Source: Acidimicrobiales bacterium
GTDB lineage: Bacteria; Actinomycetota; Acidimicrobiia; Acidimicrobiales; MedAcidi-G1
NCBI GenBank assembly: GCA_014240365.1
Contig: JAAZXC010000011.1
Coordinates: 1 to 38,633 of the forward strand
DNA: 38,633 nt
Reading direction: 5' to 3'
In this document: piece after piece, positions 19,545-36,547 of the stretch
How the letters are laid out: every line of letters begins with the position of its first letter
How positions within the stretch are numbered: position 1 is the first letter of the stretch
The notes under the pieces: generated by a model
Databases searched by the model: none
What the model saw: only the letters and a program-made list of their open reading frames with translations
Told to the model about the DNA's origin: nothing
Program-made: the position numbers and the translations under genes

Positions 19545-20024
19545 TCACTCCTCCAGGTTCCGGTCGGCCACGACGATCCCGTCCTCGTCGGCCCACAACC
19601 ACATGCCGGGAGACACCTCTACTCCCCCGACGGTCACCCTCACGTCCCGCTCGCCGGCATCGCTCTTCACGCTCCGTCGGGGGCTGGTTCCCCTGGCACG
19701 GATCCCAATCGTCGTGCCGCGCAGTTCCCCGACGTCGCGGACGCAACCATCCACGAGGATTCCGGCCCATCCGTTGTCGTCGGCCAGCTGGCCGATGTTT
19801 CCCCCCACCAGGGCGCAGCGGGTCGAACCGCCCCCGGCGATCACCAGTACCCGGCCAGATCCGGCCTCCTCCAGGGCGTCGCGCACCTTCGAGTTGTCCT
19901 CGAATACCGCCAGGGTGCTGATCGGTCCCGAGAACGAGGTGGCGCCGCCGTAAGAGGCGAACGACCCTTCGAGGACCCTGACCTCGTCGCCGTATCCGTC
20001 ACAGATATCCGCTGTGGGGGTCAT
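19545..20024 (-). CDS. RraA-like protein (putative 4-hydroxy-4-methyl-2-oxoglutarate aldolase family)
   Basis: A 159-aa RraA-fold protein. The family includes the RNase E regulator RraA and metal-dependent class II HMG/CHA aldolases. Conserved blocks are TADICDGYGDEV, the glycine loop IAGGGSTRCALVGGNIG and GCVRDVGEL. R96-D97 in the last block corresponds to the catalytic/metal-binding Arg-Asp pair of the aldolases, so an aldolase or oxaloacetate decarboxylase activity is possible. The start ATG overlaps the TGA of the selenoprotein gene as ATGA, and GGAGGAG lies 8 nt before it, inside that gene. The two proteins should therefore be made together. Why an RraA-like protein is coupled to an ArsC-fold redox protein is unknown. 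Confidence 0.85.
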   Translation of the reverse strand: MTPTADICDGYGDEVRVLEGSFASYGGATSFSGPISTLAVFEDNSKVRDALEEAGSGRVLVIAGGGSTRCALVGGNIGQLADDNGWAGILVDGCVRDVGELRGTTIGIRARGTSPRRSVKSDAGERDVRVTVGGVEVSPGMWLWADEDGIVVADRNLEE

Positions 20025-20410
20025 GCCCCCGCTCCTCCGATGAACTCGTAGAGGCGCGCCTTCGGGCGCCCCACGCAGGCCACCAGCGGTCCGTCACCAG
20101 CAAGGTCGCCCATGACCAGGACCGGCCGCTGGAGGAGCGCCTTGCGACGGGCCAGCAACTCGACCACCGCTTTCGGGTCGCCGACGTAGTCGGCCTCGAC
20201 GAGCTCCAACTTCGAGAACTGCGAGTCCTTCCTGACCAGGTCCTCGACCGGGCCGTCCAACCCTGCGGCCATGCGGGTCAGGAGCGCCTCATCGGGCGGC
20301 TCCTTCATGTAGAGGACGACATCCACTTCCACCCCGAGCTCCTCGGCGACCGCCAAGGCGTTCTTGGAAGCGTGTCAATGGGGGTTGTGGAAGACAGTCA
20401 GTACGGCCAT
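20021..20410 (-). CDS. Predicted selenoprotein: ArsC/Spx-fold reductase with in-frame TGA (Sec12)
   Basis: A 129-aa protein if TGA at 20377-20375 is read as selenocysteine. It begins MAVLTVFHNPH-U-HASKNAL, which places U12 exactly at the redox cysteine of the ArsC family (Cys12 in E. coli ArsC, HNPxCxxS). The ArsC arginines are kept: R60 (LVRKD), R95 (LLQRPV) and R115 (VGRPK). GGAGG lies 7 nt before ATG 20410, so translation is set up to start before the TGA. A hairpin follows 18-33 nt after it. The open frame after the TGA, starting at TTG 20356, would lack the first strand and the active site, so it is not a sensible gene. The stop overlaps the RraA-like start (ATGA). Likely a thiol/selenol oxidoreductase; the substrate, arsenate or other, is unknown. 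The remaining alternative is a nonsense mutation. Confidence 0.85.
20342..20357 (-). promoter_or_regulatory. SECIS-like hairpin of the first ArsC-fold gene
   Basis: On the minus strand CTTGGC, loop GGTC, GCCGAG form a 6-bp stem (one G-T pair) with the loop starting 24 nt after the TGA. Bacterial SECIS elements lie within about 16-37 nt of the UGA with G near the start of the apical loop. The GGUC loop is similar to the GGUCU loop of E. coli fdhF. Coding constraint limits the weight of this evidence. Confidence 0.5.
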
Positions 20411-20435
20411 GGGTGGGCCTCCGTTCAGTGGTCGG

Positions 20436-20741
20436 TCAGCCCGGGTTCTCTACGTGGGCTCTCAGGTGGGTGCCGGCCTCGTCGGTCCAGCCCTTGGATC
20501 GTGCGTAGGAGACCATTCCGGCGAAGCTCTCCTCCCAGTCGTCGTCGGCCAGCCCGGACAACCAGTGCCGAATGGCCGACTCCGCTATCCAGAGGTACTC
20601 GCCGTCGGAGCGGGTCTGCTCACCCATGGTGGCTGCGAGGTCGGCAACGGCGAAGCCGGCCGGAGCCTCGACGTGAAAGTCGGTGAACACGGCGTGCTCG
20701 TCGACCCGTACGGCCCCTGCCTCATCCACCCGGATGATCAT
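20436..20741 (-). CDS. Conserved hypothetical protein, 101 aa
   Basis: Small acidic soluble protein without signal peptide, membrane segment or recognisable catalytic motif. The pattern VDEHAVFTDFHVEAPAGF near the start and WEESFAGMVSYARSKGWTD near the end look like those of uncharacterised actinobacterial proteins of the same length. It lies 14 bp after the enoyl-CoA hydratase and 25 bp before the selenoprotein gene, in one transcription unit. It could be an accessory factor of either. I cannot assign a function. Confidence 0.65.
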   Translation of the reverse strand: MIIRVDEAGAVRVDEHAVFTDFHVEAPAGFAVADLAATMGEQTRSDGEYLWIAESAIRHWLSGLADDDWEESFAGMVSYARSKGWTDEAGTHLRAHVENPG

Positions 20742-26165: not shown

Positions 26166-26525
26166 ATGTCCGACCGGCTCCTCCTTTACCACAACCCCGG
26201 TTGAGGGAAGTCCAGAGGCGCCCTCGGCATGCTCGAGGAGCGCGGCGTCGAGTTCGATGCCGTCGAGTACCTGAAAAACCCACTGGACCGGGAGACCCTC
26301 GAATCGATACTCCACATCCTGGACCGCCCGGCTGCCGATCTGATCCGACGTGACGCGACCTTCGAAGGGCTCGACGTGGACCCTGCACACCTGGCCGATG
26401 CCGGGACTGTCGTCGACCTTCTGATGCAACACCCGGCATTGATGCAGCGCCCCATCGGCGTCCGGGGCGAGCGGGCTGTCATTGCCCGACCGGCCGAGCT
26501 GATCCTCGATCTGCTTGACGGCTGA
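26166..26525 (+). CDS. Predicted selenoprotein: ArsC (arsenate reductase) family with in-frame TGA (Sec13)
   Basis: A 119-aa protein if TGA at 26202-26204 is read as selenocysteine. The start MSDRLLLYHNPG-U-GKSRGAL aligns with the E. coli ArsC active-site loop YHNPACGTSRNTL, with U13 exactly at the catalytic cysteine. The three arsenate-binding arginines are kept: R61 (LIRRD), R95 (LMQRPI) and R108 (ARPAEL). Length and order match glutaredoxin-linked ArsC/YfgD proteins. A conventional call from ATG 26229 would remove the first strand and the catalytic loop. A -10 box supports ATG 26166, and a hairpin lies 18-34 nt after the TGA. The next gene starts 19 bp after its stop. Probably a selenol-based reductase; the arsenate substrate is unproven. 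Confidence 0.87.
26222..26238 (+). promoter_or_regulatory. SECIS-like hairpin of the second ArsC-fold gene
   Basis: CCTCG, loop GCATGCT, CGAGG form a 5-bp GC-rich stem whose loop begins with G, 23 nt after the TGA. This is almost the same offset as in the first ArsC-fold gene (24 nt). A competing stem at 26212-26227 (CC-A-GAGG, loop CGC, CCTC-GG) is also possible, so the active form needs testing. Confidence 0.45.
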
Positions 26526-34886: not shown

Positions 34887-36116
34887 GTGGCCGACTTCTT
34901 CCAGAACGGTGTGATCGCCACCCTCCACGACCTCGGACGACGATCCACCGAGGATCTGGAGCGGGAGCTCAAGGAGTGGAGCAGCGAGACGCCCATGTCG
35001 TTGGTCATCCCATGCCTGGTGGCAGACCTGGATGCTCCCTCTCTGGAGAGGATCGTCCGCGAGCTGGCCGCCGTCCCCTACCTCGACGAGGTGGTCATCG
35101 GCCTGGACCGTGCCGATGCGTCCGACTTCGACCGGGCGCGTTCCATCTTCTCCCGCCTTCCCCAGCGCCACCGGATCCTCTGGAACGACGGACCCAGGCT
35201 GCAGTCCATCCGCGACGAGTTGGACGCCCACGACCTGTCCACCGGAGTGCCGGGCAAGGGACGCAACGTCTGGTTCTGCCTCGGCTACTTCCTGGCCGCT
35301 GGAACGGGCCGCATCGTGGCGCTCCACGATGCGGACATCCGCGACTATGACCGTTCCCTCCCCGCCCGGCTGCTGTATCCCATGGCGCACCCGTCCACCA
35401 GGTTCGGTTTCGCCAAGGGCTACTACCACCGGGCCTCGCGTGGGGCGCTCGACGGCGATCGCCTCTATGGACGGGTCACCCGGCTGTTCGTGACACCCCT
35501 CATCCGTGCAATGGCTGTCACCTTCGGCGGGCGCGACTACCTCGACTACCTGGACAGCTTCCGCTACCCGCTGGCAGGTGAGTGCGCCATGACCCTCGAG
35601 GTCGCCGAGTCGCTGCGTGTGCCGTCCGACTGGGGCTTCGAGATCGGCGTGCTGGCCGAGGTGCATCGGCACCTCCCCACCACCCGCATCTGCCAGGTGG
35701 ACATTGCCGACGCCTATGACCACAAGCACAGGGAGCTCTCGGCCGAGGACCCTGACAGCGGCCTCCACCGGATGAGCGCCGACATAGCCAGGGCGATCTA
35801 CCGCAGGTTGGCGATCTCCGGCGTGGTCCTCTCGACGGAGGGATTCCGGTCGCTGGAGGCCGCCTACGACCGCACGGCGCTGGACCTGATCGACCGCTAC
35901 GAGGCGGATGCGGCGTTCAACGGCCTGAACTACGACCGGCACGGCGAGGAGGCCGCCATCCAGGTGTTCGCCGGGGCCATTGTCCGTGCCGGGGCCGAGT
36001 TCCTGGAGGATCCACTGGAGTCGACCTTCATCCCCAGTTGGTCACGTGTCAGGTCCGAGATTCCCGACATGGCCGAGCGGCTGGTCGCTGCCGTGGAGGC
36101 CGACGCCGCCTCCTAG
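34887..36116 (+). CDS. gpgS: Glucosyl-3-phosphoglycerate synthase-like glycosyltransferase (GT81)
   Basis: A 409-aa GT-A glycosyltransferase. The N-terminus MADFFQNGVIATLHDLG and the metal motif D148-A-D150 (ALHDADIRDY) fit GpgS/GT81 enzymes, which join glucose from NDP-glucose to 3-phosphoglycerate as the first step to glucosylglycerate. The loop VPGKGRNVW (about 121-129) is placed like the phosphoglycerate-binding region. A mannosyl-3-phosphoglycerate synthase is a less likely alternative. Start GTG 34887 is supported by the -10 box upstream. The phosphatase partner (gpgP) is not in the window. Glucosylglycerate would serve as a compatible solute or polysaccharide primer. Confidence 0.85.
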   Translation: MADFFQNGVIATLHDLGRRSTEDLERELKEWSSETPMSLVIPCLVADLDAPSLERIVRELAAVPYLDEVVIGLDRADASDFDRARSIFSRLPQRHRILWNDGPRLQSIRDELDAHDLSTGVPGKGRNVWFCLGYFLAAGTGRIVALHDADIRDYDRSLPARLLYPMAHPSTRFGFAKGYYHRASRGALDGDRLYGRVTRLFVTPLIRAMAVTFGGRDYLDYLDSFRYPLAGECAMTLEVAESLRVPSDWGFEIGVLAEVHRHLPTTRICQVDIADAYDHKHRELSAEDPDSGLHRMSADIARAIYRRLAISGVVLSTEGFRSLEAAYDRTALDLIDRYEADAAFNGLNYDRHGEEAAIQVFAGAIVRAGAEFLEDPLESTFIPSWSRVRSEIPDMAERLVAAVEADAAS

Positions 36117-36547
36117 GGCCTCCCGGATCGACGAATCAGGCCCCGGGTGCGTCGGAGCGCCCATTCGGTGCTACGGCGGATGCGGTGGAGGTGATGACAC
36201 CTAAGGCCTAAGTGATCTTTCTTCCGTTACCCCTCGTTTCGCCTGCAATCACAGACATCTGCCGGGACGGGTAAGTCACGGTCGAAATCAGGGGGACTGC
36301 TTTGGGTACGGATTCGGCCCGGAATCGTGGTTCTCGAGCTCCTGGCAGCCGAAGCCACGAGAGACGCGACCCTCAGTGGATCAAGAGGGAATCGAACTCT
36401 CGACCTCTTCCGTGCCATGGCATGTCTACGAAGGTCCAGGCGGCAACTGTTCTTCGGTCCCACCCGAGTAGGCGGCCGAGGGGGGTTGTGAACTCCTGAC
36501 TGATAGATGGTTCATATACTGGCCTTAGAACTGAGAAGGAGAATCAG
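36117..36547. other. Intergenic region with compositional border and tRNA 3'-end-like fragment
   Basis: This stretch of 431 bp carries no convincing gene; the short open frames in it lack start signals and family likeness. G+C falls across it. On the minus strand at about 36377-36407 it holds a tRNA-like 3' end: variable-loop-like AGGTC, T-arm GAGAG-TTCGATT-CCCTC (one mismatch), then TTGATCC and a discriminator A. No matching 5' acceptor (GGATCAA) or D-arm is adjacent, and the anticodon arm does not fold well. It may be an attachment-site remnant. Near the end, AAGGAG lies 6 nt before the peroxiredoxin ATG. Confidence 0.5.

Follow-up and report, generated by a model that had tools for sequence, protein, structure and literature searches.

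The gene at positions 20021..20410 on the reverse strand of the window (the whole 38,633-nt stretch of Acidimicrobiales DNA that was analysed) is very probably a selenoprotein gene of the ArsC family, with selenocysteine (Sec) predicted at residue 12. This gene, referred to as copy 1, starts at ATG 20410, 7 nt after a ribosome binding site (GGAGG, 20418..20422, reverse strand), encodes the N-terminus MAVLTVFHNPH, and then reaches an in-frame TGA (20375..20377, reverse strand) in the context HNPH-TGA-HASK. The terminal TGA follows 117 sense codons later, at 20023-20021, and shares bases with the start codon of an RraA-family gene (ATGA); the product is 129 aa long with U12. An initial annotation, made from the letters alone, had read the gene as a predicted selenoprotein; the ribosome binding site, the position of the TGA on the redox Cys codon and the 117 intact codons that it described were all recovered on rereading, and its overall interpretation is supported by the Sec machinery, codon alternation and hairpin selection reported below. 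The program-made list of open reading frames gives just the post-TGA part of copy 1. Against Pfam ArsC (PF03960) copy 1 scored 32.3 bits (gathering cut-off 24), which makes it a member of the family, and U12 was aligned by HMMER with the catalytic Cys12 of E. coli ArsC (PDB 1jzw/1i9d). The motif in the ArsC frame is UxxS, namely UHAS in copy 1 and UGKS in a second gene of the window (copy 2).

Decoding of copy 1 would proceed through tRNA-Sec(UCA), delivered by SelB to the UGA of codon 12, with SelB recognising a hairpin 16 nt downstream of the UGA. The codon, tRNA and hairpin parts of this predicted decoding were demonstrated in the sequence and by comparing homologues, and the SelB step is established for bacterial Sec insertion. 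The initial annotation had named selA, selB, selC and selD as the genes to look for, and all are present in the genome (2.2-Mb assembly, 192 contigs, 95% complete). Profile searches returned selA (383.7 bits, cut-off 267.9), selB (267.8 bits, cut-off 242.25) and selD (359.6 bits, cut-off 125); selA and selB adjoin on contig C113, which also carries the tRNA-Sec gene (67.5 bits; called by ARAGORN as tRNA-SeC, anticodon TCA). The selD gene (L009:1486-2553, G000:C139) is a predicted selenoprotein gene too, with an in-frame TGA in HGAG-TGA-GCK.

An ArsC match was found in 45 of the 48 family genomes, 43 of these to copy 1, and at order level in 184 of 298 sampled genomes. A total of 169 loci, including the window's own, were scanned, and 167 rows with the HN motif were retained; L167 and L168, which lack that motif in any frame, were left out. 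Among the matches listed, and with the window included, the active codon is TGA in 148 of the 167 homologous rows and TGC in 19, such that Cys and TGA alternate at exactly the codon where the initial annotation had suggested that homologues be aligned. On a protein tree built with residue 12 masked, the Sec and Cys states need 6 changes, which suggests several Sec/Cys switches among these ArsC homologues; this quick tree, built from 118 columns, leaves 70 of its 164 inner branches open, it gives no direction for the switches, and one locus whose frame runs on (L184) was excluded from it. UAG-encoded Sec was considered for two homologues whose rows contain an inner TAG and was rejected, as the TAG is the terminal stop and the active codon is TGC. 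Presence of selA followed the codon: it was found in 97 of 98 TGA genomes vs. 5 of 19 TGC genomes (Fisher P = 3.6e-13, ignoring relatedness), and the single TGA genome without it is 83% complete. For this table, covering the 117 of 184 order genomes with a match in which the active codon was read, selA was scored as present where the match was better than E 1e-20, and six weaker matches were scored as absent. The TGA rows among the matches listed were all taken and the stop-free rows in part, so that the 19 Cys genomes represent a sample.

Among the best 80 of 211 relatives, the closest named ArsC is that of isolate UWMA-0264 (90% identity), a metagenome-assembled member of the Acidimicrobiia, and marine MedAcidi-G2B and MedAcidi-G1 lie lower. 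One locus titled Verrucomicrobiales (L267) has an ArsC 59% identical to that of the window, and the rest of the best 80 are titled Acidimicrobiia, other actinobacteria and one plain bacterium; the title of L267 may reflect either a binning error or contamination, or a transfer.

The predicted bacterial SECIS of copy 1 (CCTTGGC-GGTC-GCCGAGG, 20341..20358, reverse strand) is a hairpin with a 7-bp stem and a GGUC loop (20351-20348), and it was assessed by folding, covariation and synonymous shuffles. The hairpin with the GGTC loop had been noted initially as starting 18 nt after the TGA; it is present, and it starts at the 17th nt, leaving a spacer of 16 nt. A G in a small apical loop is given as the criterion for a bacterial SECIS in the available part of the Sargasso Sea report (PMC1088965), and copy 1 has such a loop on a hairpin just 3' of the UGA. 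Across the family, the GGTC loop was found in 43/43 copies of copy 1 and the full 7-bp stem in 42/43, compared with a mean of 2.0 and a maximum of 9 in 500 synonymous shuffles, in which amino acids were fixed and codons redrawn from the usage of the same genes. At order level, 50 further Sec rows carry a GGTC loop, and 46 of them have the full stem (shuffles: mean 2.6, maximum 8); these 50 rows were chosen by the loop, and just the stem is tested there. None of the 19 Cys homologues has the full stem, the same as in shuffles.

In two stem pairs, both partners fall on third codon positions. One of these pairs is C-G in 36 of the 43 family copies, T-A in 6 and T-G in 1, and the other is G-C in 26, A-T in 14, G-T in 2 and A-C in 1, the last being L184, the sole family copy with a stem mismatch. 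Over 92 rows, the third-position pair 23-32 is G-C in 62, A-T in 25 and G-T in 5, and on the tree it requires 14 changes as a pair, as against 10 and 12 when each site is counted alone. The Leu codon of the stem (+7) is TTG or TTA in 42/43 family copies, although TTG and TTA account for 23% of the Leu codons that these genes use at positions 14-94. Against dinucleotide shuffles, neither hairpin of the window reached significance in MFE folding (z = -0.75 and 0.11), and an Rfam search of the window yielded 4 hits with E no higher than 5, each scoring under the gathering threshold and none of them a SECIS (Rfam may lack a bacterial SECIS family). Folding against synonymous shuffles over codons +1 to +16, with 25 rows sampled from the larger groups, gave mean z values of -1.33 in 24 of the 43 copy 1 rows, -1.38 in 25 of the 70 order rows and -1.04 in all 18 copy 2 rows, compared with -0.33 in 17 HNPG rows, -0.18 in 19 Cys homologues and -0.79 to +0.37 in other stretches of the same genes. 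The synonymous-codon tests, rather than MFE folding, were the informative ones for these hairpins. Judged from such codon choice and from the covariation, the copy 1 hairpin is selected as RNA, in line with a SECIS role.

Outside the family, the GGTC loop is missing from the copy 1 register in 37 of 87 order-level Sec rows. In 20 of those 37 rows the copy 1 stem was no better than in shuffles, and the other 17 had a z of -0.33, so the SECIS shape of these rows was not found. At the loop position, 16 of the 37 (rows among L050-L171) have CATT.

Copy 2 (26166..26525, forward strand) encodes 119 aa with U13, carries an in-frame TGA (26202..26204, forward strand) in HNPG-TGA-GKS, ends with a terminal TGA and was also matched in the homologue search, which bears out the earlier remark that a second gene in the window has the same pattern. 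It scored 39.7 bits against Pfam ArsC (cut-off 24, E = 6.3e-10), and the codon is TGA in the 18 family relatives read. Its predicted SECIS hairpin (26218..26243, forward strand; from folding) has 10 bp with a one-base bulge, with each pair retained in 16 to 18 of 18 family relatives and, over 17 order-level HNPG-TGA rows, in 8 to 17 of 17. The hairpin differs from that of copy 1, and copy 2 with its 18 family relatives forms one group (SH-aLRT 99, quick tree). A composition-based scan of the window for in-frame TGAs returned zero candidates, and a looser scan returned 15 frames and missed both known ArsC cases, making it uninformative on further selenoproteins in the window.

An AlphaFold model of copy 1 had a mean pLDDT of 90.8 (54-row alignment). 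In the PDB it is most similar to arsenate reductases (query-normalized TM 0.73-0.75; identity 24-27%), with Spx, YffB and further ArsC-family chains ranking next. H8, N9, R60, R95 and R115 are invariant in 167/167 rows (166 loci plus the window's second copy, with L184 excluded from the arginine count), and S15 is invariant in the 54 aligned rows. R60, R95 and R115 are the three conserved arginines of the initial annotation, and we take them to be the catalytic arginines from their roles in E. coli ArsC. In the family, copy 1 has an inserted loop around residues 101-112, before the third arginine, which is missing from the order-level homologues in the 54-row alignment.

The product of copy 1 would be an ArsC-fold thiol-type oxidoreductase, with Sec12 in place of the nucleophilic Cys12 of E. 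coli ArsC and the three arginines kept. No Cys beyond the Sec position occurs in 112 of 148 Sec rows (86/87 order-level, 13/43 copy 1 and 13/18 copy 2 family rows), and a general scheme should therefore need an external thiol. Copy 1 of the window is one of 30/43 family rows with one further Cys, Cys112, which was considered as a conserved resolving residue and dropped, since it is Cys in just 27/43 family copies and Thr, Ala or Ile in 15 (one unreadable). To complete the catalytic cycle, the enzyme could draw on a redoxin together with an external thiol, possible candidates being a protein resembling mycoredoxin and mycothiol, respectively. Genes matching the MshC model (454 bits, cut-off 485.1) and the mycoredoxin model (79.3 bits, cut-off 89.5) were found in the genome; as both fall below their cut-offs and the mycoredoxin model matches in 22/48 family genomes only, mycothiol is put forward as a suggestion. 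Two adjoining MshC/CysS-type genes (G000:C126:33718-34896 and 34967-36148) matched the MshC model at 454 and 300 bits, and similar adjacent pairs are found in many family genomes.

Arsenate is the natural first guess for the substrate, given the ArsC fold matches and the three invariant arginines; Sec12 most likely attacks arsenate, and we lean slightly towards arsenate as the substrate of the Sec enzyme. The alternative to be weighed most carefully is that the Sec enzyme is real and acts on something other than arsenate, such as low-molecular-weight thiol adducts, peroxides or protein disulfides, and this is a serious, if tentative, possibility. Against the arsenate reductase (glutaredoxin) model TIGR00014, the copies scored 64.6 and 93.4 bits, both below the curated equivalog cut-off of 106.05. 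No arsenite exporter gene (ArsB/ACR3) was found in the window's genome, and ArsB and ACR3 were each found in 0/48 family genomes by searches that were positive in 6/14 and 7/14 control genomes, respectively. Nor were ars genes among the scanned neighbours of copy 1. The RraA-family gene (19545..20024, reverse strand; Pfam RraA-like 147.6 bits; NCBIfam NF006875 208.4 bits, cut-off 136) often lies close downstream of copy 1 in relatives (match at 23/80 named loci), a 101-aa ORF (20436..20741, reverse strand), for which no family was assigned and no Pfam or NCBIfam match was found at E 0.001, frequently sits just upstream (homologous stretch at 22/80 named loci), and an enoyl-CoA hydratase gene, also near copy 1, recurs at 32/80 named loci, paralogues being included in all three counts. 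The missed TIGR00014 cut-off, the missing exporters and the non-ars neighbours argue against arsenate. On the other side stand the invariance of H8, N9 and the three arginines and the arsenate reductases that lead the fold matches; moreover, the exporter searches covered ArsB and ACR3, and other arsenite exits (aquaglyceroporins, methylation, ArsP, ArsJ) lie outside them.

The remaining alternatives concern the codon itself. One is that the UGA acts as a regulated stop, with low selenium leading to a restart at TTG 20356 and a 111-aa form without the active site; a TTG-started frame (20021-20356) does appear in the program-made list. This is very unlikely. The TTG belongs to the SECIS stem, which accounts for its conservation, and TTA stands there in 15/43 family copies; in addition, no ribosome binding site is shown for TTG 20356, and the product would be without the catalytic residue. 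A pseudogene or sequencing error, with a nonsense mutation at codon 12, would be conceivable from one genome alone, and such a chance event had already been called unlikely in the initial annotation; it is now highly implausible, decided by the recurrence of TGA at the same codon in 148/167 rows with no stop within the following 59 codons in any of the 167 and by the RNA-level selection on the hairpin, with the co-occurrence of selA and TGA genomes pointing the same way. Reassignment of UGA to an ordinary amino acid in this organism, which has nothing in its favour beyond the in-frame TGA, can be set aside with near certainty, because TGA is still a stop codon that terminates both ArsC genes, the Sec machinery is present, 19 homologues have Cys at the codon, and the selA and best selB matches are free of internal stops.

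Selenoproteins of this kind were described earlier, and the initial annotation, right in its selenoprotein reading, treated as a surprise a Sec-containing arsenate reductase that has been in print since 2005, and in the UxxS form since 2008. In the accessible parts of the sources, the Sargasso Sea selenoproteome of 2005 lists it among new families (14 sequences, COG1393), with bacterial SECIS elements reported for those families (PMC1088965), and the GOS analysis of 2008 lists ArsC 1 (pfam03960, UxxS, 77 sequences) next to a separate UxxC form (42 sequences) (PMC2398784). The present proteins resemble these, by description only, in COG1393/pfam03960 and in UxxS; the earlier ones are environmental sequences, whereas the present genes come from a single Acidimicrobiia lineage whose genomes also encode the Sec machinery, occur as two copies in part of the family, and had their SECIS covariation tested. 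According to the part available of a 2006 survey, ArsC-like selenoproteins occur in Desulfotalea psychrophila and Desulfuromonas acetoxidans (PMC1794560), which are likewise genome-encoded, but in Deltaproteobacteria, and are again likened by description only. The UxxS family also appears in two reviews, in the portions available (PMC9312934, among predicted families, and PMC13188914), the latter stating that bioinformatics is the source of nearly all selenoproteins of this type, whose functions are still largely uncharacterized. An arsenate reductase-like selenoprotein treated in that review (NF041106, PMC13188914, as far as the available text describes it) is ArsC-like with Sec in the motif, as here, but its motif is UxxC, in contrast to UxxS and the preponderance of Sec rows without another Cys. 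Compared with E. coli ArsC (1jzw, 1i9d), copy 1 has the same fold, and its residue 12 and first two arginines align with those of the E. coli protein, but it differs in Sec for Cys, in the low sequence identity and in the absence of an arsenite exporter gene from the searches of its genome. Among paper titles in the open literature, with subscription journals outside the scope, none was found on Sec-containing ArsC in the Acidimicrobiia/MedAcidi lineage. The Sec-containing ArsC kind is thus already known from seawater DNA, and what is added here is comparative support from many related genomes.

Standard gene prediction truncates genes of this sort at the TGA. A kind of selenoprotein previously seen in environmental reads can now be assigned to a particular bacterial lineage in which its machinery is present and its SECIS has been tested, and this raises a testable question, namely what leads a bacterium with a small genome to invest selenium in an ArsC enzyme, given that neither ArsB nor ACR3 was found in the family. 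We tentatively propose that small-genome, largely marine Acidimicrobiia retain Sec-dependent enzymes of the ArsC fold, one or two per genome, in genomes that lack a classical arsenite exporter, that these enzymes work through a single selenol and an external thiol, and that this may represent either a way of detoxifying arsenate without an exporter, fitted to seawater poor in phosphate, or a new role for Sec in the ArsC fold that does not involve arsenate.
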